Origin: Malonomonas rubra DSM 5091
GTDB lineage: Bacteria > Desulfobacterota > Desulfuromonadia > Desulfuromonadales > Geopsychrobacteraceae
Direction: 5' to 3'
Length of the DNA stretch: 64,000 nt
NCBI RefSeq assembly: GCF_900142125.1
Contig: NZ_FQZT01000013.1
Coordinates: forward strand, 1-64,000
Within the stretch, counting starts at the first letter, position 1. Each line of letters starts with the position of its first letter. The translations under genes and the position numbers were made by a program. Under the pieces are notes generated by a model that did no database searches, had not been told where the DNA came from, and saw only the letters and a program-made list of their open reading frames with translations. Shown piece after piece: positions 5,919 to 57,831 of the stretch.

Positions 5919-6146
5919 CAGTACTCCATCATCAGGTCATGGAAAGAAAAACAGGCACCACTTTACGCAGATGCAGGTTTTCTGTCCAGCACAAGGAAGT
6001 GATGTAAACGGGTAAAATAATAAGACTTATGTTCCAACCAAAGATATTTTTTGATAGGCTTACATGATCTGCCACAATGAGTGAACGGTCTTTCCACTGC
6101 CTCATTCGAAACAGATGTTGCCAGTATCAAATGAAAAGAGGGGATT

Positions 6147-7319: not shown

Positions 7320-7327
7320 TAAAGACA

Positions 7328-8119: not shown

Positions 8120-8161
8120 CGTTTGATCGTTTTTTTTGCTTTCATTTCCAAGTACCTGCTC

Positions 8162-8167
8162 TATAAT
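8162..8167 (+). promoter_or_regulatory. Probable -10 box for the HDOD-GGDEF gene
   Basis: A perfect TATAAT lies 37 bp before the ATG at 8205, inside the 85-bp gap after the helical-repeat gene. The best -35 candidate at 16-bp spacing is TTTCAT (8140-8145), which is weak. This suggests the GGDEF gene can be transcribed independently of the two upstream genes. Confidence 0.45.
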
Positions 8168-8204
8168 TAGACATCACAAATCTTCTTCCCCATAGAAAAC
8201 TGAA

Positions 8205-9737: not shown

Positions 9738-9749
9738 AACTGAATCGCT

Positions 9750-10352: not shown

Positions 10353-10501
10353 CGTCACCTCCCCTCTCTTCTCACAGCTGCCTAACAGTCTAACGCTAAA
10401 AACGGCTTTTCCCACTGATCAGTTTGTTAATCCACTGGCTAGAGTGCCAAACGCATGCTAACCTTTCAGGCATAAACTGTAACAAACTCCAAAGGTTCCA
10501 G

Positions 10502-11641
10502 ATGCCTCAGCCAACCCAGGATGTCAAATATCAGCTTGACAGCGGTAACTCGACCGCTGTTCTTTCTCTTTGCGGTGACTGGTGCTTCGATGCCGGCATA
10601 CCGCAATCGGAGCCGCTGTTTGCGGACTTAAGCCGACAGCAAAAAAATTCTACATTGCAGATCAACTGCGAGCAGCTCGGCAAATGGGACAGCGGCCTGA
10701 TGACTTTCCTGCTGGCACTGCTCGACACCTGCCGCCAGCACAAAATAGCTGTCGACACATCGCAGCTCCCGGTCGGCGCACAAAAGTTACTGGATCTGGC
10801 GACCCGAGTACCGGAACGAAAAGGTGCCCGACGGGCTGTCCTCGGCTTGCCGGTTTTGACGCGGATCGGCAACGTCACCATTGAAATGCACCGCAACTGG
10901 GAAGACTTACTCTCATTTCTCGGTGAAACCGTTTATGCCGTCGGCAACATGCTGCGCGGCAAAGCACGTTTTCGGACTTCCGACCTGTTCTACCAGATCG
11001 AAGGTGCCGGCCCATCGGCACTGGCAATCATCACCCTGATCAGCACACTTGTCGGTCTGATCCTCGCTTTCGTCGGAGCGGTACAGCTGCGCCTGTTCGG
11101 CGCGCAGATTTTCATTGCGGACCTGGTTGGACTGGGAATGGCGCGGGAGATGGGGGCGATGATGACAGCGATTATCATGGCCGGTCGAACCGGTGCCGCC
11201 TACGCTGCCCAGCTCGGCACCATGCAGGTCAACGAAGAGATCGACGCGCTCAAAACCATGGGCATCTCGCCAATCGAATTTCTTGTTTTACCCCGCCTGA
11301 TGGCGCTCTGCCTGATGATGCCGCTGCTATGCATTTATGCCGATTTCATGGGAATTTTTGGAGGAGCTATCGTCAGTGCCTTAATGCTTGATATCTCCTT
11401 TTTCGAGTATTACCAGCAACTGCAGTCTTCAGTTGCACTGAAGCATTTCCTGATCGGCCTGATCAAGGCAGCGATCTTCGGTGTTATCGTCGCGACCTCT
11501 GGCTGTTTCCGTGGCATGCAATGTGGTCGCAGCGCATCAGCGGTCGGCTTTGCCGCAACCAACGCTGTTGTCACGTCGATTGTACTGATCGTCGTTGCCG
11601 ATGCCATCGTTACAATAATTTGCCAGATTCTGGGGTATTGA
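10502..11641 (+). CDS. MlaE-type lipid ABC permease with N-terminal STAS-like domain
   Basis: A 379-residue permease. Residues 1-110 resemble a STAS domain (beta-strand VKYQLDSGNSTAVLSLCGDW; Leu-rich helix after WDSGLMTFLLAL). The remainder is the MlaE/YrbE membrane domain with the conserved loop EIDALKTMGISPIEFLVLPR and about five membrane segments. In E. coli the STAS partner is the separate protein MlaB; here it is fused. It should move phospholipid between the inner membrane and the MCE protein encoded downstream. I chose the ATG at 10502 (AAAGG upstream) over an in-frame ATG at 10424 that adds a non-conserved Cys-rich stretch. Confidence 0.9.
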   Translation: MPQPTQDVKYQLDSGNSTAVLSLCGDWCFDAGIPQSEPLFADLSRQQKNSTLQINCEQLGKWDSGLMTFLLALLDTCRQHKIAVDTSQLPVGAQKLLDLATRVPERKGARRAVLGLPVLTRIGNVTIEMHRNWEDLLSFLGETVYAVGNMLRGKARFRTSDLFYQIEGAGPSALAIITLISTLVGLILAFVGAVQLRLFGAQIFIADLVGLGMAREMGAMMTAIIMAGRTGAAYAAQLGTMQVNEEIDALKTMGISPIEFLVLPRLMALCLMMPLLCIYADFMGIFGGAIVSALMLDISFFEYYQQLQSSVALKHFLIGLIKAAIFGVIVATSGCFRGMQCGRSASAVGFAATNAVVTSIVLIVVADAIVTIICQILGY

Positions 11642-11642
11642 T

Positions 11643-12392
11643 ATGGCAACGCAAGCGCATCTCGATATCCGCAACCTGACCATGGCCTATGGTGATGCTG
11701 TGATTCAGGAAAATCTCAACTTCACCGTAAAGCGCGGGGAAATTTTCGTCATTATGGGCGGCAGCGGTTGCGGCAAAAGCACCCTGCTGCGCCACCTGAT
11801 CGGCCTGATGACTCCGTACGAGGGGCAGATTCTGCTCGACGGAACGGATCTCTGGCAAGCAAGCCAGGAGGAACGCAACCAGTTGATCAGCCGCTGTGGT
11901 GTCCTTTACCAGGGCGGAGCGCTCTGGAGTTCCATGACATTGGCGGAAAATCTTGAGGTTCCGTTGAAAGAATACACGACTCTTTCGAATAAGCAGATCA
12001 GCGAAGTCATCTCCTACAAACTGGCGTTGGTTGGCCTGGCCGGTTTTGAAGATTATTACCCTTCCGAGATCAGCGGGGGCATGCAGAAACGGGCCGGGCT
12101 GGCGCGGGCAATCGCCCTTGACCCGGACATCCTGTTTTTTGATGAACCATCTGCCGGCCTCGACCCGATCAGTTCGCGCCTGCTGGATGACCTGATTCTG
12201 CAACTGCGTGACAGCCTCGGTGCAACAGTCGTCATCGTCACCCATGAACTGGCGAGCATTTTCACCGTTGGTGACAATTCGATTTTCCTCGATCCCGATG
12301 CAAAAACAAGTATCGCCAGCGGTGCACCGAAAGAGCTGCTGGAAACATCGACAGATCCACGGGTCAGAAAATTTTTGACCCGAACGACATAA
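11643..12392 (+). CDS. MlaF-type ABC transporter ATPase
   Basis: A 249-residue ABC ATPase with Walker A GGSGCGKST, Q-loop region, signature SGGMQKRAGLARAI, Walker B ILFFDEPSAGLDP and switch His in VIVTHELAS. The GGMQKR form of the signature is typical of MlaF-family lipid-transport ATPases. It starts one base after the permease stop and would power phospholipid movement through that permease. Family length is normal. Confidence 0.93.
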   Translation: MATQAHLDIRNLTMAYGDAVIQENLNFTVKRGEIFVIMGGSGCGKSTLLRHLIGLMTPYEGQILLDGTDLWQASQEERNQLISRCGVLYQGGALWSSMTLAENLEVPLKEYTTLSNKQISEVISYKLALVGLAGFEDYYPSEISGGMQKRAGLARAIALDPDILFFDEPSAGLDPISSRLLDDLILQLRDSLGATVVIVTHELASIFTVGDNSIFLDPDAKTSIASGAPKELLETSTDPRVRKFLTRTT

Positions 12393-12424
12393 ACGCTTTT
12401 TAGCGATCAGCAATAGAGGGTTTT

Positions 12425-13480
12425 ATGCAACGACGCAAACGAATAGATCCACGCGTTATCGGCAGTTTTGTCGTCGGCGCCATCCTGCTCGGCATGGCCG
12501 GTTTGATCTTTTTCGGCCCCGGTGGCCTGGTTTCTGAAACCGAAATGTACGTCCTTCACTTCGACAGTTCGGTCAAAGGTCTCACCGTCGGCTCCCCGGT
12601 CCGTTTTCGCGGGGTAAAAATTGGCCAGGTCAAGGACATCAACGTCCGGCTGCGGCCATCAGATCTTGAGTTTCACATCCCGGTCATCATTGAGATTGAG
12701 CCTTCACGAATCAAGGCCGAAGGTAGCGAGCAGGGATTTATCGATGCCATGAAAGCAACGTTAAAAGGTGGCAACCCGATCGATCGACTGGTCGAGAAAG
12801 GCCTGCGCGGGCAGTTACAGCTCGACAGCCTGGTGACTGGTCGCCTCTATGTCAATTTCGACATGTACCCGGATGAACCTGTCTACAATGTCGATTACCC
12901 GTCAGAATACCCGCCCCTACCGACCATCAGTTCCAGTCTCGGTGAGCTGACGAAGACATTTGAAGACTTGCCACTACGTGAACTGGCAGACAAGCTGATC
13001 CGCTCTGCAGACGGCTTCGAGCGACTTGTCACCTCCCCCAGCCTGCACAGTGGACTGGCCAAGTTCGATGAATTGGCAACCAACATGAACGAGCTGCTGG
13101 AGGAAATGAAAAAAGATCTTTCAGGAATCACCGCGGAGCTTTCGGCTACGATGCAGCAGACTCAGAAAACACTGAGCAATATCGACGACAAACTCGGCCC
13201 GGCAAGCAGCGAACTCAGTGATACCCTGCAAGCTTTCGCAGCAGCGTCGAAAAAAACTGAACAAACCATGCAGGCGTTCGCTGCTGCGTCCCAACAAACC
13301 GAGCAGGCCATGCAGAGTATCGAGCAAATGACCTCTGCAGATTCACAGCTGCAACAACAATTGAGCCAAACACTGCAGGAACTGTCACGCACGGCCCGCT
13401 CTGTCCGCTACCTGGCAAATGAGCTGGAGCATGATCCGCAAATTCTGCTGCGTGGCCGTAGCACAGGAGAGAAAAAATGA
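12425..13480 (+). CDS. MCE (MlaD/PqiB-like) lipid-transport protein
   Basis: The 351-residue protein has an N-terminal membrane anchor (about residues 12-32) and one MCE domain (about 38-125: YVLHFDSSVKGLTVGSPVRF, then GVKIGQVKDI). A long Gln/Ala/Thr-rich helical tail (about 195-340) is predicted to be coiled coil, including the repeated AFAAAS(K/Q)(K/Q)TEQ. MCE proteins form hexameric lipid-binding rings that bridge the periplasm. The long tail is more like PqiB or LetB-type and mycobacterial MCE proteins than the short E. coli MlaD. GAGGG ribosome-binding site; the stop overlaps the next start (ATGA). Confidence 0.9.
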   Translation: MQRRKRIDPRVIGSFVVGAILLGMAGLIFFGPGGLVSETEMYVLHFDSSVKGLTVGSPVRFRGVKIGQVKDINVRLRPSDLEFHIPVIIEIEPSRIKAEGSEQGFIDAMKATLKGGNPIDRLVEKGLRGQLQLDSLVTGRLYVNFDMYPDEPVYNVDYPSEYPPLPTISSSLGELTKTFEDLPLRELADKLIRSADGFERLVTSPSLHSGLAKFDELATNMNELLEEMKKDLSGITAELSATMQQTQKTLSNIDDKLGPASSELSDTLQAFAAASKKTEQTMQAFAAASQQTEQAMQSIEQMTSADSQLQQQLSQTLQELSRTARSVRYLANELEHDPQILLRGRSTGEKK

Positions 13481-14052
13481 AAAAAGAGATCATCGCCATT
13501 CTCACCCTGCTGCTGTGCCAAGGGTGCATTCAACTTGGCAGCGACACCCAACCGACCCGCTACTACCTGCTTGAACCCTTGGCGGAACCTGTTGTCGCAA
13601 CAGGCTCTGAACCGCTAAATATCAAACTCGGTCCGATCGAATTTCCCGGCTACCTGGATCGTCTGCAAATCATCACCCGAGGTGCAGACAACGCTATTAT
13701 CACAGCACCACTCGATCGCTGGGCAGAGCCGCTGTCGGAAAATTTTCAACGCACGCTGCAGGAAAACCTTCACCGTCGCCTCGGCAATGCGGAAATCCAA
13801 CTTGCCCCCTGGAACCTGAACAGTAAACCCGGCTACCAAATCCTTTTGACAATCAATAGGTTCGATGCAACTTTAGGGAAGCAGCTTAACGTCGATATCC
13901 GCTGGGATATTATTTCTTTGTCAACAAACGGTAAAAAAACTAGAGGCCATTTCCTGAGTCAGACAGAAATCGGCAAAAACTACGGGGAAATGGTCAAACA
14001 ACTGAGTTCTGCATTAGCAAACTTCAGTCATGAATTGGCTGCAAACCTTTGA
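13477..14052 (+). CDS. ABC-type transport auxiliary lipoprotein (PqiC-like)
   Basis: A 191-residue lipoprotein. The signal peptide ends in the lipobox LCQGC (Cys17), followed by the family hallmark TRYYLLEPL. The body resembles the ABC_trans_aux/PqiC fold (LGPIEFPGYLDRLQI; DRWAEPLSENFQRTLQENL). In Pqi systems this lipoprotein sits on the outer membrane and meets the MCE tunnel. Its ATG overlaps the MCE stop by 4 bp, so the two are translationally coupled. It completes a permease-ATPase-MCE-lipoprotein operon. Confidence 0.88.
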   Translation: MKKEIIAILTLLLCQGCIQLGSDTQPTRYYLLEPLAEPVVATGSEPLNIKLGPIEFPGYLDRLQIITRGADNAIITAPLDRWAEPLSENFQRTLQENLHRRLGNAEIQLAPWNLNSKPGYQILLTINRFDATLGKQLNVDIRWDIISLSTNGKKTRGHFLSQTEIGKNYGEMVKQLSSALANFSHELAANL

Positions 14053-14113
14053 GAATTGGTCGCAAAGCATCTCTGACCTCTCGACGGATATAAGTGTTAA
14101 GGAGCAAACCTGC

Positions 14114-15010
14114 ATGTCAAGAATGCTGGGATATCTTTTTGCAATGTTAACTGCCCCTACCATCTGTTTCAGCGAGCCGGCTAACATCTCTCCTTTACCT
14201 GAAGCTGGCAACAACCTGACAATCCATTTCATGGATGTCGGCCAGGGCGACGCAACTTTAATCAATTGTCCTGACGGCAACTCAATCCTTATAGATGCCG
14301 GCTCCAGCTCGGGGTTTCCGGGAGGGAAGCTTCGCTACTATCTCCTCAAGCAGGGAGGCATAGCGGGAAAACCCCTTGAGGCTCTCATCATAACTCGCCC
14401 GGACGCCAGCAAATACAATCTCGTAACAAGAGCCCTCGACAAGGTGCCTGTTAAAAATGTCTACCTTGCTGGTTCAGAAGCTGAATACAGAGGTATAAAA
14501 TTCAGCAAATGGCTCAAAGAGATTGACGAAAACCACAAACATTTTCTGCAAGGGAATGAGATCAGTACTTATGAAATTCCAACTTCAGAAATTTCTTGCG
14601 GAGATGTACGGCTCTCTTTTCTGACAGCTTCCTCCATTTTGGGCCGTTCTGACCAAAATACGCAGAGCATGGGAGTAATGATCAGCTATGGCGATTTCAC
14701 AGCCATCCTTACAAGCGACATATCAACCGTAACAGAAATCGATACCCTTGATCGCTACTCCACGCCACAACTGAACGCAGATGTCGTCAAGATAGGCAGC
14801 AACAGCAGTTTGGCATCAGCAGTAACTGACCAGTTGTTCGAAACGCTCAAGCCAAAAGCTGTCATTGTAAGCACTGGACAAAAAGACAACGCCAGGGAAA
14901 AACCTTTAGCTGCGCTCAGCAATGGCTCCAAAGCCATTTATTCGACAGTGACAGATGGCAACTTGGTTTTAAAAACTGACGGCCGTCACTTTCAGATTTT
15001 CATACCTTAA
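14114..15010 (+). CDS. Exported ComEC-C/metallo-beta-lactamase-fold protein, metal motif lost
   Basis: A 298-residue protein with a signal peptide (about 1-22), so periplasmic. The MBL-fold hallmark of ComEC C-terminal domains is clear: IHFMDVGQGDATLINCPDG and ILIDAGSSSG. Where active members have THPxxDH, this one reads ITRPDASKY, lacking both metal-binding histidines. Later strands match the fold (MGVMISYGDFTAILTSDIS; VVKIGSNSS; AVIVSTGQ), but again His residues expected there are absent. It may be a non-catalytic binding protein. The start at 14114 has a strong AAGGAG site; a longer in-frame version from 14030 would overlap the lipoprotein gene and lack a signal peptide. It follows the Mla operon closely. 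Confidence 0.75.
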   Translation: MSRMLGYLFAMLTAPTICFSEPANISPLPEAGNNLTIHFMDVGQGDATLINCPDGNSILIDAGSSSGFPGGKLRYYLLKQGGIAGKPLEALIITRPDASKYNLVTRALDKVPVKNVYLAGSEAEYRGIKFSKWLKEIDENHKHFLQGNEISTYEIPTSEISCGDVRLSFLTASSILGRSDQNTQSMGVMISYGDFTAILTSDISTVTEIDTLDRYSTPQLNADVVKIGSNSSLASAVTDQLFETLKPKAVIVSTGQKDNAREKPLAALSNGSKAIYSTVTDGNLVLKTDGRHFQIFIP

Positions 15011-45477: not shown

Positions 45478-46149
45478 TCAGCTGAAATCGTATTTGTTGA
45501 TGATTGCAACCGGGGCAGAAAAAGTGACCGCGGCGGCATACCCCCTGGTCAGATAAAAATGTCTGCTGAATTCATCGGCCCCGGTTGTTTGCCCGGCGCT
45601 AGAGAAGCCCCCCCCCTGCATTTTCAACCAAGCCTCTTTCTGAGTCCACAGCCGGTAGAAGATTCTGAGCTGTCGTATCAGGCTGGCAGCCTCCAGAAGA
45701 GTTCGTTCAGTAGAGGAAAAGTAGCGTTGCGCCAGTAAATGGTAATCGAGAGTGTGATCAAGACCTTCAATATCGACACCAACCTGGCCTTGGCCTACTG
45801 CCAGTACCCCCCAGCGACCGGAATGCGCCAAGTTGAAATCAACACCTGCAACGCCCCGCAATCCCGGTTTGCCTTGCTCAGCATAGACAAAAGCGATCGC
45901 TGAGGGCTCGCAATGAAGGTAACGGCTCAGGATTTGGCGTATCCGGGCGCGGGCACAGATGAACTGCTGCTGTTTCTCTTTGAGCAGCAAGCGCCCGGCA
46001 CGAGCAATTTCATCATCAGTTAAAAGAGATTTTAGCTGGTCGGTCTGGACTTCGGGCAAGGCAAGCGAAAAGCGCCAAAGGTCGATTTTATCGGGAGAAA
46101 CAACAGGACGCTCAGGTGCAGTACGCCAACAACCAACAGCAATACCCAT
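45478..46149 (-). CDS. 4'-phosphopantetheinyl transferase (Sfp type)
   Basis: A 223-residue PPTase of the broad-range Sfp/AcpT class. It has FNLAHSGRWGVLAVG, the Mg2+-binding VGVDIEGL and the helix FYRLWTQKEAWLKMQGGG, whose Lys and Glu complete the active site. It transfers phosphopantetheine from CoA to the Ser of carrier proteins. It is the last gene of the pfa-ole operon, 3 bp after oleD, and so is most likely dedicated to the five ACP domains of the PfaA-like protein. PUFA clusters commonly need such an enzyme (PfaE). Confidence 0.93.
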   Translation of the reverse strand: MGIAVGCWRTAPERPVVSPDKIDLWRFSLALPEVQTDQLKSLLTDDEIARAGRLLLKEKQQQFICARARIRQILSRYLHCEPSAIAFVYAEQGKPGLRGVAGVDFNLAHSGRWGVLAVGQGQVGVDIEGLDHTLDYHLLAQRYFSSTERTLLEAASLIRQLRIFYRLWTQKEAWLKMQGGGFSSAGQTTGADEFSRHFYLTRGYAAAVTFSAPVAIINKYDFS

Positions 46150-46152: not shown

Positions 46153-47142
46153 TCAACCTTTTGCCAGCCAGTCCTGCAGGCGCCGCATTCCTTCATCAAT
46201 AGAGACCTTCGGCTGATAACCGAAATCTTCCTTGGCGTTGCTCAAGTCGAACCAGTGGGAAGTCGATAATTCACGAGCAACGAAACGGGTCATGCGTGGT
46301 TCCCCCTTCAATTTGAAAGTGGAGTAGATTTTTTCCAGCACTGCCCCGGCAAAATATGCCAGGTCAGGAGAGATGCTCCTGGTGACCGGCGGTAGATTGC
46401 CTGCGGCCAGAATCCTGTTGACAACATCCCAGAGAGGCAATGGCTCGTCGTTGGAGAGAAAATAGGCTTTGCCAGCCACCTCACTGCCGATCGCGAGCTT
46501 TTCAGCTGCCTGCAAGTGGGCTTCGGCCGCGTTATCGATGTAAATCGTATCGACCAGGCAATCGCGCTTACCGATCTTAAGCAAGGCCCCTTTACGCCCT
46601 CTCTCCAGAATACGCGGCACAAGATGGTTATCTTCCGGCCCCCAGATCAAGTGCGGCCGTAGCGCCACGGTGGCCAGATTCTCATCATTCGCCATCAGTA
46701 CCAGTTTCTCGGCTTGCGCTTTGGTTTGCGGATAGTAAGCGTGGAAATGACCCGGATAGGGGATCGACTCGTCAACACCTTCCATGTCGGTGCCATCAAA
46801 AACAACACTCGGTGAACTGGTATAAACCAGGCGCTCGATACCATGCTCGCGGCAGGCCTGGATCACATTTTGGGTGCCAACCACGTTGGCAAGATAATAA
46901 TCTTCGTAATCACCCCAGACCCCAGCTTTAGCCGCAACATGAAAAACGATATCGCAATCGACGGCAGCAGCACGCACAGCAGCATAATCATTAAGAGCAC
47001 CCGAAAAGTGGTTCACTCCAAGAAGCGAAAGCTCCGGGTACTCACTTCTCGAAAAAGAATTAACTTTCCAACTCTTAGCGAGCAATAGTTTAACTATTGC
47101 CTTACCTAAAAAACCACCACCGCCAGTAACCAGAGCTCTCAT
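46153..47142 (-). CDS. oleD: OleD, 2-alkyl-3-oxoalkanoate reductase
   Basis: A 329-residue extended SDR of the 3-beta-HSD-like group. It has an N-terminal Rossmann motif TGGGGFLG, the catalytic Ser-rich segment YTSSPSVVFDG and the YxxxK pair in YYPQTKAQAEKL. In the olefin pathway OleD uses NADPH to reduce the beta-keto acid made by OleA to a beta-hydroxy acid. Its start overlaps the oleC stop (ATGA). Position directly after oleA, oleB and oleC makes the name secure. Confidence 0.92.
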   Translation of the reverse strand: MRALVTGGGGFLGKAIVKLLLAKSWKVNSFSRSEYPELSLLGVNHFSGALNDYAAVRAAAVDCDIVFHVAAKAGVWGDYEDYYLANVVGTQNVIQACREHGIERLVYTSSPSVVFDGTDMEGVDESIPYPGHFHAYYPQTKAQAEKLVLMANDENLATVALRPHLIWGPEDNHLVPRILERGRKGALLKIGKRDCLVDTIYIDNAAEAHLQAAEKLAIGSEVAGKAYFLSNDEPLPLWDVVNRILAAGNLPPVTRSISPDLAYFAGAVLEKIYSTFKLKGEPRMTRFVARELSTSHWFDLSNAKEDFGYQPKVSIDEGMRRLQDWLAKG

Positions 47143-48794
47143 CTGATTTGCCCCTTAGCCCAGACCGCCAGTTTCTCGCGGAAGATTTTTGCATTGTGCC
47201 TGATATCGACCGGGAAAGCAGGATGGATCAAAATATGCCCGATCGGCTGAATCAGTTCATGCTTCTGCGTCAGTAATTTCAGTTCACGGATGATCTGGGC
47301 ATGTTCATTTTTATCGATCCCCGGCTCAAGTTCGATACAGATCACAGGTTTCATGTTTCCGGGCTTGCCAACACCGACCAGTGCCGAACGAAAGACTTTC
47401 GGGTGAGTATTGAAGATCGCTTCGCAGGGGATCGTGTACAACGTCTTATCAGTGCAGGTCACCCGATGTGCCTTACGACCACAAAACCAGATCCGACCAT
47501 AGTTATCACGATAACCGAGATCGCCCATACGATGGTAAAAGGTCGCATTCGGCGGATCGAGTATTTTTGCCAGATCAGTCGATTTCTTCCGATTGAAATA
47601 GCGCCGGGTGACCTGCGCTCCGGAAACAACAATTTCTCCGATTTCATTGGCCGGTACTTTCAAGTCATCGTTCCACCAGTCGATCGGTTCATCGGTCGTG
47701 CTGATGATCTCAAGCTTGATGCCGGGAACCGGCATGCCAACACAAACACCGAAGCCGTTATCTGTCGCTTTCCGGGTATCTTGCAGAATTTCTCGACTGC
47801 CGATGGAGCAGACTGGCAATGATTCGGTCGCACCGTAGGGAGTAAAAACCTCAACGCCCTCTCCCAGCATTTTCGTAAAACGCTCCAACACAGATGCCGG
47901 GACCGGGGCACCGGCCGAAATTGCCCGTTTCAGTGATGGCAGCTTTATCCCATTCTCTTCACCGTAGCGGCCAACACGGTTGATCAGTGCCGGGGACCCG
48001 AACATGGTGGTGATATTGAATTTTTTGATTGGATCGATAATGTTCTTCGGGTCAACCGAACCGGGGCGGGTAAAATCCATCACCGGCACGACCGAGCTCA
48101 TCCCCAAAGCCGGGGCAAACAGGGCAAAGAGCGGGAACGTCGGCAGGTCAATTTCGCCCGGTTGAATATCGTAAACAGCTTTGAGCTGCTCAACCTGGGC
48201 GATAAAATTTCCGTGGGTATAAACGACGCCCTTCGGCACTCCAGTACTGCCACTGGTAAAAAGAATGGCCGCCGTTTCTCCGCTCTCGGTTTCCACCACG
48301 CGATAGGGTTTATCGGCGGGTGCTTTACGTTTAATGCCACGCAGGGTTGAACCGCCCCAGAACAGCTTACCGCCGACGGTCAACAAAGTCTTCAAGGTCG
48401 GCTTACCCCAGCCGAACAACAGCCGCGCAACGTGCGCTTTCGGAATACCGACAAAGGCTTCCGGTTCTGCTTCTGCAAGACAGATCTTGAGATTTTTGAT
48501 GCCGATACCTGGATCGATCATGATTGGCACTGCACCGACCTTGAACAGGGCAAAGGTCAGGGCAAAGAATTCAAGTCCCGGGGTCACCATCAGCGCGGTA
48601 TGAACGCCACGACCGATACCGATCTCCTCGAGGCCATGGGCAATCCGGTCGCTCTCCCGATCAAGCTGCTTAAAGCTGAAGGTTTTGTACTTCTGCCCTT
48701 TTCCGGTCGGAATATGGATGGCGGGGGTATCCGGCTGCCGACGCGCCATCGCCGGCAGATGCGCCGCGATGTTGGTCAACATGCCGGAACTCAT
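47139..48794 (-). CDS. oleC: OleC, beta-lactone synthetase (ANL superfamily)
   Basis: A 551-residue AMP-forming enzyme. The P-loop is LFTSGSTGVPKGVVYTH, followed by TPYGATESLPV (A5-type motif), MGDLGYRDNYGRIWFCGRKAH (A7/A8 hinge) and a short C-terminal domain. In the Ole pathway it activates the beta-hydroxy acid with ATP and closes it to a beta-lactone. Length fits stand-alone OleC; in some bacteria it is fused to OleB, but not here. Overlaps oleB and oleD by 4 bp each. Confidence 0.93.
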   Translation of the reverse strand: MSSGMLTNIAAHLPAMARRQPDTPAIHIPTGKGQKYKTFSFKQLDRESDRIAHGLEEIGIGRGVHTALMVTPGLEFFALTFALFKVGAVPIMIDPGIGIKNLKICLAEAEPEAFVGIPKAHVARLLFGWGKPTLKTLLTVGGKLFWGGSTLRGIKRKAPADKPYRVVETESGETAAILFTSGSTGVPKGVVYTHGNFIAQVEQLKAVYDIQPGEIDLPTFPLFALFAPALGMSSVVPVMDFTRPGSVDPKNIIDPIKKFNITTMFGSPALINRVGRYGEENGIKLPSLKRAISAGAPVPASVLERFTKMLGEGVEVFTPYGATESLPVCSIGSREILQDTRKATDNGFGVCVGMPVPGIKLEIISTTDEPIDWWNDDLKVPANEIGEIVVSGAQVTRRYFNRKKSTDLAKILDPPNATFYHRMGDLGYRDNYGRIWFCGRKAHRVTCTDKTLYTIPCEAIFNTHPKVFRSALVGVGKPGNMKPVICIELEPGIDKNEHAQIIRELKLLTQKHELIQPIGHILIHPAFPVDIRHNAKIFREKLAVWAKGQIR

Positions 48795-49702
48795 AAGGTT
48801 TGTCCCGGAAGCGGATTCTCAGCAAGGAAATCGCGAATGATCGGAATCACATCCTCTTTGGCGTCTTCCAGGATGTAATGGCCGCAGTCAGCAAAGCTGT
48901 GCACTTCTGCCTTCGGCAAGCGCTGCTTCCACTCCTTGAGAAAGTTGACGTCGAAAACGAAATCCTTTTCGCCCCAGCAAATACAGATCGGCAGGTCGGC
49001 AAACTGCTGCAGATTCTCATCCACTTCACTGACAATATCGTAACCAGGATCGCCCTCTTCCAGCGGAATGTCCTGCACAAAACGCAGCGTTGCAACCCGG
49101 CTCTGCCAGCTATCGTAAGGTGCGCAATAGGCTTTGCGTAGCTCCACCGGCATCGATTTGCGTTTGCAGCCGATAAAAGCTGCGCCCCGAGCGAAAAGAT
49201 TGAACCCCTGCACCAGAAAAGCACCGAGCTGGGTATCGCGACAGATACGCAGTGCAACCGGGAAGGTTTTGCTCTTCGGCAAATGGAACGCGGCAGTATT
49301 CATGAACACCAGTCGCGCGATCCGCTCGGGATACCGGGTGGCGTAAGCCATGCCGATCATGCCACCCCAATCGTGCAGCACCAGGGTAATGTTCGATTGA
49401 ATATCGAGATGATCAAGCAACGCTTCGAGATCATCAACCCGTTGCTTGAGAGTAAATGAATACATCGAATCTACCGGCTTGTCCGACAGGCCGCAACCGA
49501 TGTGATCCGGTACGATAACGCGATAATCATCACGCAACTCTTTGACCAGGTTGCGATAATAAAACGACCAGGAAGGATTCCCGTGCAGCATCACCACCGG
49601 GTCGCCTTTGCCTTCGTCAAGGTAGTGATATTTCAGCTGACCGAGTTGAAGAAAATTTCCATCGAAGGGGTATTCTTTTTTCATCAAAGGAGTATCGAGC
49701 AT
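48791..49702 (-). CDS. oleB: OleB, beta-lactone decarboxylase (alpha/beta hydrolase)
   Basis: A 303-residue alpha/beta-hydrolase of the haloalkane-dehalogenase branch. The oxyanion segment is VVMLHGNPSWSFYYRNLV, the nucleophile Asp lies in LVLHDWGGMIGMAYA, and the final catalytic His is in HSFADCGHYILED. OleB decarboxylates the cis-beta-lactone to the olefin. I take the ATG at 49702, overlapping the oleA stop as TGATG, which favours coupled translation; an in-frame ATG at 49729 would overlap oleA by 28 bp. Confidence 0.92.
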   Translation of the reverse strand: MLDTPLMKKEYPFDGNFLQLGQLKYHYLDEGKGDPVVMLHGNPSWSFYYRNLVKELRDDYRVIVPDHIGCGLSDKPVDSMYSFTLKQRVDDLEALLDHLDIQSNITLVLHDWGGMIGMAYATRYPERIARLVFMNTAAFHLPKSKTFPVALRICRDTQLGAFLVQGFNLFARGAAFIGCKRKSMPVELRKAYCAPYDSWQSRVATLRFVQDIPLEEGDPGYDIVSEVDENLQQFADLPICICWGEKDFVFDVNFLKEWKQRLPKAEVHSFADCGHYILEDAKEDVIPIIRDFLAENPLPGQTL

Positions 49703-50745
49703 CACCACTGAATCCCCATCATCAAACAATTCAAGCCGCTGCCGATGCCGAGAAAACCGACAAAATCACCCGGCAGCAGAACATCACGCTCTTTGGCGAT
49801 CGCCGCGGTAATCGGCAGGGAAACAGTTCCCATATTGCCGAGGAATTCAAAAGTCGTAAAATCCTTCTGCGGCGAGATACCGATCGTCTGCAGTATCAAT
49901 TTCTGGTGCGCTTCCCCGACTTGATGGCAAATAACCTTATCGACCTTATCCGGTGAGATATCGAGCTCAGACGCAAAAGCATCCCAGGTCCGCTTACCCA
50001 GTTCAACGCCATGCTTCATAACGGCGACGGCATCAGTCGACATGTAAGGGATATGATTTTCCGGCGAATCGACACGGATCCCCCAGCGGCAAAGTTCGTG
50101 GAATTCCGGTTCGGCGACATTAACGCCACCAAGCAGCTTCGGCCGTCGAGAAGGGGTGAAGGAGCCATCGGTCAGCAGGACAGCCGCGGCACCAGAACCG
50201 CCGGTCATGGTTGCCAGCGACTTGGTGAACAGCTCCATCGATGGATGGCTGTTCATCTGCTTGATCATAATTTCGTTGATTTCGCGCGAACTTTCACAGG
50301 CAACAACCAGGCCGGCACGAATCTGTCCCAACTCAATCCGGTTGGCGATATCGAGCACGCCATTAAGCACGCCGAGACAGGCATTGGATAGATCGTAAAC
50401 CGCGGCATTCCCCTTAACCCCCAGCGCCGCAGCAACCTGGCAAGCCGTGGCCGGTTCAAAATGCTCGCGGCAAACCCCGGCGTAAACCACGGCACCGATA
50501 TCCTCCGGCGAGATATTCCTCTCCTGCAGCGATTTTTTCGCCGCGGCAATGGCTCCATGAGAAATCGGCGTATTCGGTTTCCACCAGCGCCGCTCACGGA
50601 TGCCGGTTAAGGCTTCGAGCTGGCCCGGAGCAATATGCAAGGCTTCGTAGGTTGGCTGTAAACGGCTTTCCAGTTCGGTGGATGTAACCACGATCGGTGC
50701 CAGTTCGTAGCCGACCGATTCAACGTAGACGCGAGAATATTTCAT
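49702..50745 (-). CDS. oleA: OleA, head-to-head acyl condensing thiolase
   Basis: The 347-residue thiolase-superfamily enzyme has the active Cys in LSNACLGVLNG, the His in VICHQVGEAHQK and the Asn in EFLGNMGTVSLP. The Glu of GVCREHFEPATA matches the catalytic base that separates OleA from FabH. OleA removes one acyl-CoA alpha-proton and joins two acyl chains to a long beta-keto acid. ATG at 50745 follows GGTGAG. Upstream lies a 159-bp gap with a large stem-loop, then the PUFA-type synthase, which could supply its substrates. Confidence 0.94.
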   Translation of the reverse strand: MKYSRVYVESVGYELAPIVVTSTELESRLQPTYEALHIAPGQLEALTGIRERRWWKPNTPISHGAIAAAKKSLQERNISPEDIGAVVYAGVCREHFEPATACQVAAALGVKGNAAVYDLSNACLGVLNGVLDIANRIELGQIRAGLVVACESSREINEIMIKQMNSHPSMELFTKSLATMTGGSGAAAVLLTDGSFTPSRRPKLLGGVNVAEPEFHELCRWGIRVDSPENHIPYMSTDAVAVMKHGVELGKRTWDAFASELDISPDKVDKVICHQVGEAHQKLILQTIGISPQKDFTTFEFLGNMGTVSLPITAAIAKERDVLLPGDFVGFLGIGSGLNCLMMGIQW

Positions 50746-50818
50746 CAACTCACCAGAGATTCATTGTCTGTTCTGAACAATCAAGAAGCAAAATAATCGG
50801 AGTAGGTTTTTAACATGG

Positions 50819-50904: not shown

Positions 50905-53900
50905 TCAGGGGTGCAACCGCAGGGAAAAATCATGCAGTTGATAAATCACCTTGCCATCAACCGAGAGGAAACCGTCAGCTTTGAGCAGCTTCTGCTGATC
51001 ATCAGCGAAAGTGATAACCGCTTCAACTTTGACTTGGTCATTACTCGGGACAATCTGCCCGCGATAATTCCAGCTGTGCTTCTCGTTCAGCGCGATTGTT
51101 TCAAATTTACTGCTCGCACTAACGCCCCAACGCTTCGCCGCTGCCACCTTGAGCAATTGCAGGAAAGATTCTAGCCCCAAAGATCCAGGACAGACAGGAT
51201 CCTGATAGAAATGTGCCTTGAAAAACCACTCATCGGGATCGATCTGTTTGAGTCCACGAATATATCCGAGTTTGTTCGGCCCGCCGCCAGCAACAAATAG
51301 ATCGATCTCATCGATCATGCGCATTTTCTTTTCCGGAAATGGCGCATCGGTCGGGAAAGCAAAGCGTTCTCCCCTGCCCTCATCTTCGGCGGTCGGCTGA
51401 TAAAGTTGGGCTCCGCGCACGCCGACCTGCTGGGCCAGAGACTCAGCGGAGAAAAAACCAAATACGGTGTCGCCGGTGTAGACCGGACCGTGCTTGTCAT
51501 AGATTTCGAAATCGTAACTCTGAATGATCATGCCACCGCTGCTGGCAACCCGGGTGATTTTGACATTGGTGGTCAAGGTTCCGGACTCCGGAGTCACCGG
51601 ACGATGCTGTAGCGCGTTGCCGTCAAGGTTGCGGAACGACAGATCGGTATCGCTGGTCAGTGCCGAACCAAGATAAGCCGCCAGCCATCCACAAGGCTGC
51701 AGGCCGGTTTCGAGCAGCACGCTGAATGGCATTTCCGGTTGACGCCCGGCAGCGAAATACCAGGCATCGGGTGGCACATCGTATTCAGCCTCGACAGTCA
51801 CCCCTTCAACAAGTTTCCAGGGTTCGCCGTTGATCGCAACGATCCGGTCGAGGAACTGGAATGGTGGTCCCGGCAGACGCGCGATCTTCCGCTCGTTGTC
51901 GAACACCTTATAGGGTTCACCGAAGGCGTCAGAGGGGTTGCCGATGGCGAATGCAGTGATGCGATCGGTATCGTAAAGAACCTGTTTCTGTTTCGGTACG
52001 ACGGGAGCAGCAACCTGCCCAGACCATAGCGCTTCAACCTGCTGTCGATCCAGACCGGTCAAACGACAGGTCATATTCGGGATTTCGACAATCGGCTTCC
52101 CGTCGGCAAACATCAACGCATCGACAATGGCATAGGGTTCCGGCCGGTAGCCGAGCTCCTTGATACTGACCTGGTAGGTCACCGTTTTGGTCGACTCGAT
52201 TACCTGTCCACGGCACTTGAGGCCGCTATCTACTCCGGGAACCGGCTCACACCAGGCTTGACCCCCTTCACCGATCCAGCCCATGCGTAGCAGGAAGATG
52301 CGCAGGGTGTGCATACAGCATTCGTACATCAGGGTACCAGGCATGACCCGATCATCGACAAAATGACAGGTCAGGAACCAATCCTTTGGATCGATATCCA
52401 TCTCGGCGTTGATCTGGCCAAGTCCGTAACGCCCACCTTTTGGATCGAGCTTGACCACCCGGTCGACCAGTTTCAAGTGGCCACCCGGCATGGTGTACGG
52501 CTGCTGCAGGCCGAGATTGGCGAATTGTGCACCGAAACAGCTTGCCAGATCACCACGGTACAAGGCATCGATCTGCGCTTCGTTGTAACTTTCCACCTGC
52601 ATCGGCACCAGTTCGCGCCAATCATCAGGCAGTTTGCCCGGCTGTGGCATCAGGTCGAGCTTGGTGTGGACAATCCCCTGACCTGCTGCCAATTCCTCCT
52701 CGGTAAAGAACCCGGCACAACCGTTCTGCATCGACATCAGTGGCTCGCCGTTGACCGTTGCCTCAAAATTGAAACGGAACAGGTAGGTCTGGTCCTGGCG
52801 AAAGAAATGATCGATTTTGATATCGTAGTGGATAGTGTCGCCAACCACCGGCAATCCGCGATGGAAGGTAACCACCGCATCTAGCAGACGGTAGACCGCT
52901 TTGCCTTTATGAATAAAATCGATGCCGAGGTAGCCGGACAGAAAAAGATCCGCCTGTCCCGCTTCGACCGCCACGCAGGTCGGAATCCGGCCACCGTCGA
53001 GATACCAGCGATCCGCAGTGACGTCATGCTCGGTCACCACCCGGCCACTGGTCATGGAACGTGGTTCACCCTCGACAGTAAGAATCCGGTCGACCAACAT
53101 CAAGGGTTCATCCGGCAGACGTACGCGGGTCGGGTAAGTATCGACTTCAGCAAACTCGGGGCCGAGCATTTTCGCAACCGAACCGATGGCGAATTCCATA
53201 CACATATCGCGGTCGAAGGCGACTTTCGGTATCGGCTTTACCGGGCTCCTTGCAAACACCGGAGCCGAAGCAGCTTGTTCAACAGGCAAAGGTGAGATCT
53301 GCGGAATCGGCTCGCCATTGGCCGCCATCTGCTGCAGCAACGACATCTGCAGACTGATATTCTCAGCCAGCGTCTGCTCCATGGTTCTGGCAAACTGCAG
53401 ATAGGTTTCGTGCGCCTGAGCACTGGCCGCTGCCGATTCAGTCAACTGCTGCAGAAACGGATTCTGCAATTCAGCTGCAGGCGGCATTTCCTGTTGAGTC
53501 TTTTCAATCTGTTTAACCGCTTGCGCAGCAGCAGGCGCAGTCGCCGCTTTCAATCGGGTCTGCACTGTCGGCTTCGTTACCACCGGTTTCGGCGGTGCAA
53601 ACGGCTGCCCACCGATCTGGGTGTGAATCAGAGCCTTTGGCGCAGCTTCCTCTTTTGCCACTACGCCATAAAGTGCAGATAAATCAACATCAACCCCTTC
53701 AGACAGGCACTGTGCCAGCAAGCGTAAAATCATCGAAGCCTGATCCTGATTAGCAACACAGGTCGGGCGGGCGAGATGCGGTCGTTCTTCAAGAATACTG
53801 TGAATCATCCGGCTGCAGGAATTGCCGGGGCCAACTTCGATAAAAATTCGCACACCATCGGCATACGCCTGTTCGATGACACGCGGATAATCGATAGTAT

Positions 53901-56900
53901 CAAGGGCTTGCTCAAGGATGGTATCGGCACAATTGTCGCGTGAGAGCTGGTATTTTGCGCCGCGTGCGCAACTGTAATAATCGATCCCTTCCGGCGGGGT
54001 CGTATCGAACAGGTGCAACTCGCGATAGGGTGTCGCGACAGGCCTGGTCACTTCACAGTGGACGGTTGTCACGCCGCGAAGCTGGATCATGTGGCAGCCG
54101 ATCTCCTGCACAAGTTGTTCAACCTGCTGGCGATCCCCGCCGATGACACATTCTTTGTAAGTGTTGATAATCAACAGGTAGGCGCGATCTTTACCCTGCA
54201 GGTGCCGGCGTACTTTATCCGCGGGAGCGTCGATAATACCGAGAATCCAGTCAACCTTTTTTCCTGGCGGCAGATTCCAGGTTTTCGCTGCAGCTTTGCA
54301 GGCCCCGCCCAGATCCTCGGTAAACAAGGTCGACTTGCTCAGGCGTCGCAGCATGCCGTCCCGTTCCAGCCACGCATTGGATGAAAACAGGCCGGAAGAT
54401 TCGCCGAGACTATAACCGCTGATGGCATCCGGCTCGAGACCGAAGCTGCGAACTAGGTCGCTGATTGCGGTGCAAAGCGCTACATGTGAGATCACCAGCG
54501 CGTTGTGATCCTCATAGATCGGGTCACTCAGCTGTTTGCCCCAGAAATGTTGAGGCTGATATTGGTCGGCCAGATAATCGCTATTCCTGTCTTGCGCGGC
54601 ATAAACTTTCGGCCATTGTGCCGACAGTTCGCGACCCATCCCGGCAAAGTGGTTACCGGACCCGGGAAAAACAAAAGCCAATTTGCCTGCATCGGCCAGA
54701 GGCTGTGGGCTAAAGAACACGCGATCCCGAGCAACTGCCGACAGATTTGGTTGACCGTTTCCTCCCAAAGCTTTATCCGGCTGCTCACTAAGCGATTTTA
54801 TCGCGAAATCGATCTGTTCAGACAATTCCTGGGCAGAACCGGCAACGAAAGTCAGACAAAGCTTGCCGACCGATTTATTGCTCTTATGCCAATGAGCTGC
54901 AAGCCTATCAATGGCCGACATCCTGCTCTGGGCAGCAAATGCTTTGAGCTCGCCTGCTCCGGAAATAAGCTCCGCAACAGCATCGGCCCGTAATGCAAAC
55001 AATCCTTCAGCCAGTTCCCCCAGCGGTCGCACGGAATCTTCGACCGTTGACCCCTCGTAGGCTTCCAGTAAAGCATGCGAACAGCTGCCATCGACACTGA
55101 TCGAGCTCACCAGCGCCTGGCTGCGCCCATCGGCCCGGTTGCGCAACCAGTACTGTGGACCTGCGGGCAAGTTGAACTTGCGTTTACCGCGAATCCATTC
55201 ATAGCGCAGGTTATCGACATTACGCAGCGGCGGCAGAATCTGCCTGTTCAGGCAGAGTGCGGTCTTAACCAGTGATGCCAAGCCGGCAGCCGAACCTGCA
55301 TGGCCAATATCGGCTTTGACGCTGCCAACATAACAGGGAATATTACTCTCCTGCCTACCGAAATACTCACCCAGCACCTGGGCTTCAGTCTGATCTTCCG
55401 AGGTAACGCCACTTCCGGAGGTTTCCAGGTAGCCGACCTGAGACGGGCTGCTTCCCGTGTCGCTGTATAATTTCTGCAATGCAGACAAGTAAGTTGCGGA
55501 ATGAACCTGCGCTTTTTCGGACGAACCACCGACAGCAGTCCCGATACCCTTGATTACAGCATAGATCCGGTCACCATCCTGCTGGGCATCTTCAAGCCGT
55601 TTCAGAACCACGGCGGCAGCGCCTTCACCAACCAGGGTTCCATCAGCACTCTGATCAAAAGGTTTGATTTCCCCTTTGGCAGAAAACGGCATACCTGAGT
55701 GCTGGCCGAGCACCGAACGCAGGTCTCCCGCCATATCAACGGCGCCGACAATCGCCCGGTTGATCGCCCCCTCCTGCAGCGCCCGTACTCCAACTTCAAG
55801 CGCCCGCAAACCGGAATTCTCTTCGCTCGACAGGGTAAAACTGGGACCGCCGACTTTGAACTCTTTGGCGAGACGGCTGGCAACGATACTGCCGAGGGCA
55901 CCCATGACGCGATTCGCCGACAAGGCAGGCCCGGCAGCCCGGCGCAATTCAGCGATCCACCCCTCCAAGTCAGTATCGCTTAAGTTCAGGTCAAGCTCGT
56001 TTGCCCAAGCTTTAGCCAATTTCTGGATGCTCCAGCGAAAGGTGAAGTTGGTCGCGTTAAGATCGAGCCCTGTGCCGATAAAAACACCTGTGAAAAGCTG
56101 ATCTTCGTTGCGCAAACCGGCATCCTGCAACGCTTGGTCAGCGACATCGAGCATCAGCAACTGACGCGGTAGCATCTCGATCAGTTCGGTAGGCGGAATA
56201 CGGAATTTACCCGGGCTGACGGAAGCATCCGGCACAAAAAAGCCCTTGAAGGATTTTTTCAGCCCAGCGACGTCCCGGATCCATTCGCTCTCCTCAGCTC
56301 CCCACCAGTTTTCCGGTGCCGTCGGTTCAATCTGTGCGTCGCCGCCGAAAACCCGCTGTAGAAATTTCTCCAGCGAATCCCAGGGGCCGAAATGCGCCCC
56401 CATGCCGACGATAGCTATCGGTTGGGATTTTTTCCGGCTGGCAGGCAAATAAGCGACTGAACTTTTTGCAGATTGCTGAGGCAGCCACTCTTCGACCAGC
56501 AAATGAGCGTTGATACCACCGAAGCCGAATGCGCTGACCGCTGCCCGCCGCGCACGTCCAGACTTAGGCTGCTGCCAGTTTTTCGTTTGATTCAGGATAC
56601 TGAAGGGACTGTTCTGCATGGCCATTCCGTCGGCCGGCTGTGCGAAGTTAGCCGTCGGTGGCAGAGTCTGATGTTTAAATGCCAACAGGGTCTTCATCAG
56701 AGCGGCAGAACCGGCCGCCGTGAGCAGGTGGCCGATATTCGATTTGACCGACCCGATAACACACTGCTGTCGTTGCCAGCCCTGATCGCCCCACAAAGCT
56801 TTCAAACTGGCAAACTCGACAGCATCACCAACCGGAGTCCCGGTGGCGTGACACTCGATCAGGTCAACATCGCTCGGTTGCCAGCCGGCGGCTTTGTAGG

Positions 56901-57831
56901 CGGAGCGCATCGCCCGCAGCTGGCCTTCGGAAACTGGGGCTAGCAGGCTGCCACCGATATCGTTCGACAGGCCGATACCGCGAATCACCGCGTAAATATG
57001 ATCACCATCGCGAACCGCATCTTCGGTCCGTTTCAGCACAAAGATACCGCAACCCTCACCAACCACCAGGCCGTTGCCATTCTGATCGAAAGGCGAACAG
57101 GTTCCGGTCGGCGACAACGCCCGTAATTGTGAAAATCCCATTTGCGTATAAAGGGAATCGGGACGCGAAAGTCCACCGGTAAGCATGGCATCGGCGCGGC
57201 CGGAGAGCAGTTCATCGACCGCCAGTTTGATGGCGTAAAGGGATGAAGCGCAGGCGGCATCAAGAGTAAAACAGGTGCCACCGAGGCCAAGAGCTTTCGC
57301 CAGCATCCCGGCCGGGAGTCCGGCAACGTAGCGGTTCAGGGGGTTGATCGGACCTTCGATGGAATCGACCGATTTGCCAAGCAGTTTTTCAGCAAAGGTA
57401 CGCCCCAAGTATTCGCGCGCCATGGCCGAGGATTTCTCAGACGGCAACGCAAGGTTGCCGATGATGATGCCGGTGCGGCTGCGGTCTAGCTTATCAGTTT
57501 TGGCATCGGCGAACGCCTGTGAACCGGTGCGCAGCAGCAAACGAAACATCGGGTCGAGCCCGGCAAGAAAATCGGCATCGATATCGATGCCGGGGATATT
57601 TCGCGTATCGTCTTCGTCAGCCAGAAAACAGGCTTTTTTTGAATAAACCTTGTCGGCCGCCCCCACCAGCGGGTCGTAGACCTCATCGACATCGAGCAGC
57701 CAGCGCCCTTGCGGTGGCTCCGTTGCGGTATCAACCCGCTCAACGATGTTCTGCCAGAACTGATCAAGGGTCGGTGATTGTGGGAAGGAACCACCGACCC
57801 CGACTATAGCAACAGACTTTCCGTGCTTCAT
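50905..57831 (-). CDS. PUFA synthase-type subunit: KS-CLF-AT-DH-DH (PfaC with PfaB-like AT)
   Basis: A 2308-residue multidomain synthase. KS (about 1-460) has Cys194 in DAACASS, His328 in HATGT and His368 in NIGH. A second KS-like domain (about 470-900) has SSEENSG (near 669) where the Cys should be, marking a chain-length factor. AT (about 1030-1400) has nucleophile Ser in GYSLGESSG (near 1141). An Ala/Gln-rich linker leads to FabA-type hot-dog domains (about 1535-2308), with CHFVDDRVMPG (near 1830) and AHFYQDPVCPG (near 2210) preceded by two inactive-looking halves. Shewanella PfaC is KS-CLF-DH-DH and PfaB carries the AT; here the AT is inside one chain. The gene starts 2 bp after the PfaA-like stop. 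Confidence 0.92.
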   Translation of the reverse strand: MKHGKSVAIVGVGGSFPQSPTLDQFWQNIVERVDTATEPPQGRWLLDVDEVYDPLVGAADKVYSKKACFLADEDDTRNIPGIDIDADFLAGLDPMFRLLLRTGSQAFADAKTDKLDRSRTGIIIGNLALPSEKSSAMAREYLGRTFAEKLLGKSVDSIEGPINPLNRYVAGLPAGMLAKALGLGGTCFTLDAACASSLYAIKLAVDELLSGRADAMLTGGLSRPDSLYTQMGFSQLRALSPTGTCSPFDQNGNGLVVGEGCGIFVLKRTEDAVRDGDHIYAVIRGIGLSNDIGGSLLAPVSEGQLRAMRSAYKAAGWQPSDVDLIECHATGTPVGDAVEFASLKALWGDQGWQRQQCVIGSVKSNIGHLLTAAGSAALMKTLLAFKHQTLPPTANFAQPADGMAMQNSPFSILNQTKNWQQPKSGRARRAAVSAFGFGGINAHLLVEEWLPQQSAKSSVAYLPASRKKSQPIAIVGMGAHFGPWDSLEKFLQRVFGGDAQIEPTAPENWWGAEESEWIRDVAGLKKSFKGFFVPDASVSPGKFRIPPTELIEMLPRQLLMLDVADQALQDAGLRNEDQLFTGVFIGTGLDLNATNFTFRWSIQKLAKAWANELDLNLSDTDLEGWIAELRRAAGPALSANRVMGALGSIVASRLAKEFKVGGPSFTLSSEENSGLRALEVGVRALQEGAINRAIVGAVDMAGDLRSVLGQHSGMPFSAKGEIKPFDQSADGTLVGEGAAAVVLKRLEDAQQDGDRIYAVIKGIGTAVGGSSEKAQVHSATYLSALQKLYSDTGSSPSQVGYLETSGSGVTSEDQTEAQVLGEYFGRQESNIPCYVGSVKADIGHAGSAAGLASLVKTALCLNRQILPPLRNVDNLRYEWIRGKRKFNLPAGPQYWLRNRADGRSQALVSSISVDGSCSHALLEAYEGSTVEDSVRPLGELAEGLFALRADAVAELISGAGELKAFAAQSRMSAIDRLAAHWHKSNKSVGKLCLTFVAGSAQELSEQIDFAIKSLSEQPDKALGGNGQPNLSAVARDRVFFSPQPLADAGKLAFVFPGSGNHFAGMGRELSAQWPKVYAAQDRNSDYLADQYQPQHFWGKQLSDPIYEDHNALVISHVALCTAISDLVRSFGLEPDAISGYSLGESSGLFSSNAWLERDGMLRRLSKSTLFTEDLGGACKAAAKTWNLPPGKKVDWILGIIDAPADKVRRHLQGKDRAYLLIINTYKECVIGGDRQQVEQLVQEIGCHMIQLRGVTTVHCEVTRPVATPYRELHLFDTTPPEGIDYYSCARGAKYQLSRDNCADTILEQALDTIDYPRVIEQAYADGVRIFIEVGPGNSCSRMIHSILEERPHLARPTCVANQDQASMILRLLAQCLSEGVDVDLSALYGVVAKEEAAPKALIHTQIGGQPFAPPKPVVTKPTVQTRLKAATAPAAAQAVKQIEKTQQEMPPAAELQNPFLQQLTESAAASAQAHETYLQFARTMEQTLAENISLQMSLLQQMAANGEPIPQISPLPVEQAASAPVFARSPVKPIPKVAFDRDMCMEFAIGSVAKMLGPEFAEVDTYPTRVRLPDEPLMLVDRILTVEGEPRSMTSGRVVTEHDVTADRWYLDGGRIPTCVAVEAGQADLFLSGYLGIDFIHKGKAVYRLLDAVVTFHRGLPVVGDTIHYDIKIDHFFRQDQTYLFRFNFEATVNGEPLMSMQNGCAGFFTEEELAAGQGIVHTKLDLMPQPGKLPDDWRELVPMQVESYNEAQIDALYRGDLASCFGAQFANLGLQQPYTMPGGHLKLVDRVVKLDPKGGRYGLGQINAEMDIDPKDWFLTCHFVDDRVMPGTLMYECCMHTLRIFLLRMGWIGEGGQAWCEPVPGVDSGLKCRGQVIESTKTVTYQVSIKELGYRPEPYAIVDALMFADGKPIVEIPNMTCRLTGLDRQQVEALWSGQVAAPVVPKQKQVLYDTDRITAFAIGNPSDAFGEPYKVFDNERKIARLPGPPFQFLDRIVAINGEPWKLVEGVTVEAEYDVPPDAWYFAAGRQPEMPFSVLLETGLQPCGWLAAYLGSALTSDTDLSFRNLDGNALQHRPVTPESGTLTTNVKITRVASSGGMIIQSYDFEIYDKHGPVYTGDTVFGFFSAESLAQQVGVRGAQLYQPTAEDEGRGERFAFPTDAPFPEKKMRMIDEIDLFVAGGGPNKLGYIRGLKQIDPDEWFFKAHFYQDPVCPGSLGLESFLQLLKVAAAKRWGVSASSKFETIALNEKHSWNYRGQIVPSNDQVKVEAVITFADDQQKLLKADGFLSVDGKVIYQLHDFSLRLHP

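Follow-up and report, generated by a model that had tools for sequence, protein, structure and literature searches.

A fused PfaBC subunit with a PfaB-like acyltransferase domain in the pfa-ole gene cluster of Malonomonas rubra DSM 5091

Two kinds of pfaBC fusion were described by Shulse and Allen in 2011: Type C, with the composition KS-CLF-AT-DH2, and Type I, which occurs in Deltaproteobacteria (e.g., Geobacter bemidjiensis) and in one Planctomycete and was proposed to feed olefin synthesis (PMC3098273). A 2016 review sets out the G. bemidjiensis genes as a tandem of pfaD, pfaA, pfaB/C, oleABCD and pfaE in an organism that makes C31:9, and also records an acyltransferase (AT) in the middle of myxobacterial pfa3 (PMC4882568). 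Fused homologues appear again in a paper on Minicystis (PMC8436480) and in a 2026 survey of hybrid clusters (PMC13291983). PfaB itself has been characterized as a terminal long-chain acyltransferase (PMC12895367). In Shewanella, with pfaABCDE as separate genes, the acyl carrier proteins (ACPs) of PfaA supply OleA with acyl groups (PMC6463001).

Here we describe the genes surrounding pfaBC of Malonomonas rubra DSM 5091, the domain order and active-site residues of the encoded protein, the kinship of its AT with PfaB and the conservation of the cluster. The window analyzed is a stretch of 64,000 nucleotides (contig NZ_FQZT01000013.1, positions 1 to 64,000). We are confident that the encoded PfaBC belongs to a secondary-lipid synthase of Type I (of the polyunsaturated fatty acid kind), specified by a pfaD-pfaA-pfaBC-oleABCD-PPTase cluster in a member of the Desulfuromonadales. 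Two features of Type I are present, namely the pfaBC fusion and oleABCD directly downstream, and the published range of the type is matched by homologous loci whose records are titled Desulfuromonadales, Isosphaeraceae and Gemmataceae.

Table 1. Coordinates of pfaBC, its domains and the neighboring genes. Positions are those of the window unless marked; residue ranges refer to PfaBC.
Feature	Position	Strand	Composition or extent	Basis or residues
pfaBC	50905..57831	minus	2308 aa; KS-CLF-linker-AT-DH'-DH-DH'-DH	ORF list, Pfam/NCBIfam scans, single-domain searches
KS domain	56467..57816	minus	aa 6-455	active-site Cys194 in CASS
CLF domain	55102..56424	minus	about aa 470-910	Glu replaces Cys; SSEENSG from aa 668
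KS-AT type linker	54697..55044	minus	about aa 930-1045	partly aligned to KS'-AT linker of PfaB 9RY8
PfaB-type AT (by sequence)	53572..54696	minus	about aa 1046-1420	Tyr1140-Ser1141, His1258, Trp1185, Trp1195, Lys1166
pseudo-dehydratase DH' 1	52612..53154	minus	about aa 1560-1740	
FabA-like dehydratase DH 1	51997..52554	minus	about aa 1760-1945	
pseudo-dehydratase DH' 2	51412..51954	minus	about aa 1960-2140	
FabA-like dehydratase DH 2	50908..51369	minus	about aa 2155-2308	
pfaA	57834..64913 (contig; window ends at 64000)	minus	KS-MAT-5 ACP-KR	
pfaD	contig 64910-66502, beyond window	minus		TIGR02814, 632 bits
oleA	49702..50748	minus		NF006720 over cut-off
oleB	48791..49729	minus	alpha/beta hydrolase	closest NCBIfam model is haloalkane dehalogenase (under its cut-off); assigned from gene order
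oleC	47139..48794	minus		NF006754 over cut-off; also sub-cut-off matches to olefin beta-lactone synthetase models
oleD	46153..47142	minus		best models 2-alkyl-3-oxoalkanoate reductase, 460 bits, below cut-off of 580; plus gene order
4'-phosphopantetheinyl transferase, pfaE position	45478..46149	minus		P0 motif IRQILS

All genes of the cluster lie on one strand, in the order pfaD-pfaA-pfaBC-oleABCD-PPTase, with a gap of two bases between pfaA and pfaBC. PfaA contains five LGIDSI ACP motifs and a weak PS-DH match that falls under the cut-off. The phosphopantetheinyl transferase (PPTase) conforms to motif P0 (hRxhLS, here IRQILS) and to motif P1a (x(G/D)xP, here QGKP), and its P1b sequence, FNLAH, departs by one residue from (F/S)NxSH, the motif described as common to PPTases of Types A-D, F, I and L (PMC3098273). 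We do not treat the P1b motif as defining the type. The PfaD of a further locus (L005:7910-9502) matches PF21607 over aa 377-456 (6e-34); this family is a helical insert domain that takes its name from FabD.

A sequence-only reading of this DNA had placed an acyltransferase between the CLF and DH domains of a single chain, KS-CLF-AT-DH-DH, and had given no strand for it. Pfam and NCBIfam matches bear out that placement, in a minus-strand ORF that spans exactly 50905-57831. Ketoacyl synthase is matched twice, FabA-like families along three stretches (5.5e-82) and Acyl_transf_1 (PF00698) at aa 1053-1265 (2.9e-10; 40.6 bits vs a cut-off of 32.7), so the segment at 1030-1400 is indeed an acyltransferase. 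The pfaB_fam model (TIGR02816) matches aa 996-1351 (2.7e-23) with 82.5 bits, under its curated cut-off of 144.3; of the 36 genomes with a match in the phylum draw described below, 33 likewise stay under that cut-off. The proposed order thus stands; the number of dehydratase units does not. Searches with single domains resolve the C-terminal part into four hot-dog units, DH'-DH-DH'-DH, and the catalytic-His motif is absent from both DH' units when their sequences are read by eye. In the CLF a Glu occupies the position of the Cys (TLSSEENSG), just as in the CLF of Moritella ORF10/PfaC (TVSAEENS, 6RIW).

The structure predicted for CLF-linker-AT has a mean pLDDT of 87.4 and a pTM of 0.89. KS-AT didomains align along the whole of this model with an rmsd of ∼22-26 for the pair as a whole, which means that the orientation of the two domains in the model either differs or is unsure. 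PfaB 9RY8 was absent from the structure matches among the 50 rows listed in either list.

Is the middle domain the equivalent of PfaB? Among solved structures, the best sequence match of the PfaBC AT is PfaB 9RY8 of Shewanella baltica (E 1.1e-24), in an alignment that spans part of the linker together with the AT. The residues named for PfaB in PMC12895367 were mapped onto the domain: Tyr1140, Ser1141 and His1258 have their counterparts, as do Trp1185 (W501) and Trp1195 (W511), and the Gln-Arg pair of malonyl transferases is missing, with Ile1114 and Lys1166 at those positions. A departure from PfaB is seen at its Gln539, to which one alignment assigns Thr and a second Asn. Across an alignment of 53 domains, comprising 42 fused-AT or PfaB rows and 11 rows of malonyl transferases (MATs), the second Trp and the catalytic His are present in 42 of 42 fused-AT/PfaB rows; Tyr-Ser is found in 41 of the 42 (the exception, from Azospirillum, has Leu), and so is the first Trp (L136 has Phe), which occurs in none of the 11 MAT rows. 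Arg at the malonyl position shows the opposite distribution (0/42 vs 11/11). The MAT rows had been labeled by their GHS motif, so the His before their Ser follows from that choice, unlike the Arg and Trp. These features, all of them of the sequence, support the view that the AT of PfaBC is a PfaB equivalent. In Azospirillum lipoferum (L158:10842-19628) the fused AT departs from the pattern at two sites: Leu replaces the Tyr that precedes the catalytic Ser, and PfaB Ile429 is matched by a Gln, the residue said to stand there in malonyl transferases.

Two other functions for this domain were weighed. It could load extender units, which would make it a second malonyl transferase: it belongs to the same fold family as MATs (PF00698), and Moritella PfaB passed some malonate to ACP (PMC12895367), which makes a minor malonyl activity conceivable. 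Yet the domain carries K1166 instead of the malonyl-binding Arg, Tyr for His before the Ser and both PfaB tryptophans; PfaA has a MAT of its own; and in a tree of 54 rows (52 chosen from 114 extracted, plus 9RY8 and E. coli FabD) the 12 MATs, FabD included, are split from the ATs and PfaBs, with the PfaBC AT on the latter side, with support of 100/100. On the residue alignment and the tree we reject this role, which we consider barely credible. Alternatively, the domain might be a hydrolase that frees a fatty acid rather than transferring an acyl group. Hydrolase activity has been reported for some PfaB homologues (PMC12895367), none of the proteins of the cluster matched a thioesterase family, and all seven 4HBT matches of the genome lie on contigs other than that of the cluster. 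Against this, the same source assigns a Ser-His dyad with Tyr to transferases, and hydrolysis would be wasteful given that OleA requires a thioester (an argument drawn from PMC6463001). We regard a hydrolase as unlikely, and favor an acyltransferase equivalent to PfaB.

That the fusion removes the need for a separate pfaB had also been proposed, and the genome agrees: across the 42-contig assembly the PfaB model matches just the AT of PfaBC and, weakly, the MAT of PfaA. No separate pfaB was found in this genome-wide search, and with a PfaB-like AT built into PfaBC none would be needed.

The same reading took the domain order to be unusual. It is not: the order is standard in the clade, and the Type C and Type I fusions of 2011 and the 2016 review mean that the layout was already known. 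A scan of named genome contigs was made with the last DH domain as query, that is, without selection for an AT. Among the best 80 of at least 552 confirmed relatives, a sample in which nearer relatives are over-represented, 25 loci had a gene truncated at a contig end or split into shorter frames and did not enter the count of domain order; KS-CLF-AT-DH'-DH-DH'-DH was found in all 55 intact homologues. The surrounding cluster is conserved in these 80 loci too, which supports Type I: OleA-D follow in 41 of the 50 with at least 5200 bases downstream, and PfaA precedes in 48 of 53. The record titles of these intact fused genes are Desulfuromonadales, Geobacter, Isosphaeraceae, Gemmataceae, Pedosphaera, Elusimicrobia, Cloacimonetes and KSB3. 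Plasmids of Persicobacter, Streptomyces globosus and Azospirillum lipoferum encode the same order at ∼31-33% identity. A match on a Photobacterium plasmid (L155) was rejected, the genes being those of another polyketide synthase.

Nearer to M. rubra the cluster is patchy. In 31 genomes (its own plus 30 relatives, with a match threshold of E 1e-50 and counting by eye) PfaBC was matched in 21 and was without a match in 10. In 12 of the 21 the match extends from end to end of one ORF, 2315-2386 aa long; in the remaining nine it is cut, partial or confined to the KS. A wider draw from the phylum, 297 genomes searched with the PfaB model, gave matches in 36 genomes and 22 places with more than 70 bits: one is a stand-alone ORF (1016 aa) and 21 fall in ORFs of 1281-2430 aa, some of which are cut by contig ends. 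The fused layout is ordinary for this bacterial group.

Several records encountered in these searches deserve separate mention. The own-family genome G014 shares 200 identical bases with the locus of Pelovirga terrestris. Two contigs titled as metagenome-assembled genomes (MAGs) of Klebsiella pneumoniae (L099, L113) carry a pfa-ole cluster, and their titles are most likely wrong. The plasmid protein of Streptomyces globosus (L157:11806-19689) has its AT between CLF and DH'; the published Type L string, from Streptomyces coelicolor, is KS-CLF-DH2-AT, and the plasmid protein may be another type.

Comparison with the described systems places the locus closest to Type I of G. bemidjiensis, which by its published description has the same pfaBC fusion and gene order and from which, on that description, no distinguishing difference was found. 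Type C of Desulfatibacillum alkenivorans likewise has KS-CLF-AT-DH2 in one protein, but its pfaD lies at the 3' end rather than at the 5' end as here (PMC3098273). Myxobacterial Pfa3 of Aetherobacter and Minicystis is described as having its AT in the middle of PfaC and pfaD as the first gene (PMC4882568, PMC8436480); it differs in a C-terminal AGPAT domain, for which PfaBC, ending after its last DH, has no Pfam match, and the PPTase, linked here, is unlinked in the myxobacterial systems. The gammaproteobacterial PfaB and PfaC comprise the same kinds of domain. By sequence comparison with the solved structures, PfaB 9RY8 resembles PfaBC in AT residues and in part of the linker, and ORF10/PfaC 6RIW in the KS-CLF; the domains lie in two proteins there, not one, and PfaB has a KS' (PMC12895367). 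A partial likeness to thraustochytrid subunit B joined to subunit C, suggested from the letters of the DNA, fits the published description, in which PFA2 joins pfaB to the front of pfaC and PFA3 is the rear of pfaC (PMC4882568); the thraustochytrid subunits differ in having parts of pfaD fused.

The sequence-only reading also suggested that the fusion could give a different chain length or release mode suited to OleA; on that view the layout would be a novelty that arose for handing chains over to OleA. In favor is the conserved position of pfaBC directly before oleA: among the best 80 of at least 552 relatives, 72 loci extend 1300 bases or more downstream, and 64 of these have OleA there on the same strand. 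The eight Type I-like loci without an OleA match in their 1.3-10 kb of downstream sequence speak against it, with the qualification that the absence is firm in just one of them, L066, which has nearly 10 kb; the other seven have 1.3-6 kb. Eight of ten further loci with a fused gene, from the phylum draw and the plasmids, have no ole match among their ORFs of at least 250 aa; three of these eight are short contigs, and the ole-less genes include those of Streptomyces, Persicobacter and Azospirillum. The arrangement is already in print (PMC3098273, PMC4882568), and Shewanella couples a split pfaB and pfaC to OleA through ACPs (PMC6463001), so OleA does not require the fusion. An arrangement evolved for OleA is therefore very improbable, and the suggestion that the fusion is suited to OleA is not supported, given the split genes of Shewanella and the fused loci that have no ole match. 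The L066 gene itself (3518-10450), from a MAG named Candidatus Anammoxibacter, has no PfaA match in 3.5 kb upstream and no ole match in 10 kb downstream: it is either an orphan subunit or a binning mix-up.

From relatives, and from Shewanella and Geobacter in particular, we infer the following catalytic steps and product. Malonate would enter through PfaA, which would hold the chain on its five ACPs and also perform the keto reduction; condensations would fall to the KS-CLF of PfaBC, dehydration and isomerization to its DH pairs, and reduction to PfaD. The PfaB-type AT may move or off-load long acyl chains and so help to set the final product. Two polyunsaturated acyl groups (16:4 by analogy), drawn from the PfaA ACPs, would be condensed by OleA, after which OleB, OleC and OleD would complete a C31 polyene hydrocarbon.

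One locus bears on the origin of the stand-alone PfaB. In L148, from a genome of the same phylum, a fused PfaBC (4132-11379) adjoins a stand-alone PfaB (11425-14232), on the minus strand. In a tree of 47 chosen KS, CLF and KS' rows, the KS' of this PfaB falls inside the CLF group (21 rows, 100/100) and apart from the KS of PfaA; within that group it shares a set (100/99) with the CLF of the adjoining PfaBC and those of four more PfaBCs, and its highest identity, 33% over 332 columns, is to the CLF of the neighboring PfaBC. It is one protein, and its row is a long branch (2.75). The AT tells a similar story: in the best AT tree the ATs of the L148 PfaB and of PfaB 9RY8 lie among the fused ATs (99/96), in a tree with long branches for 9RY8, for E. 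coli FabD and for three plasmid rows. AU tests rejected neither a single clade of all 40 fused ATs (p-AU 0.0996) nor a tree that leaves outside just the MATs and PfaB 9RY8 (p 0.384). Of the AT and CLF phylogeny that the sequence-only reading had proposed, these trees cover the part with 9RY8 and related loci; they place one KS' among the CLFs, and the opposite polarity keeps a p-AU of 0.0996.

It has been proposed that PfaB originated from the KS-MAT pair of PfaA (PMC12895367). The position of the L148 KS' among CLFs speaks against that origin and for a detached CLF-AT unit. We tentatively suggest, as a possibility somewhat short of even, that the stand-alone PfaB, which sets the product in marine PUFA synthases, is a detached copy of the CLF-linker-AT part of a PfaBC and that its KS' is a decayed CLF. 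A search of publication titles found none stating that PfaB is a detached CLF-AT unit; titles alone are not proof that the idea is unpublished.

Together these analyses show that the PfaB/PfaC split of marine gammaproteobacteria is not general: in the loci examined, fusion as PfaBC is the rule. The combination of Tyr-Ser, two Trp and no Arg separates PfaB-type from malonyl-type ATs and is usable for annotation. If PfaB did arise from a CLF-AT unit, its dead KS' would be explained, and the fused layout of M. rubra and its relatives would be the starting point of the textbook split rather than an anomaly.
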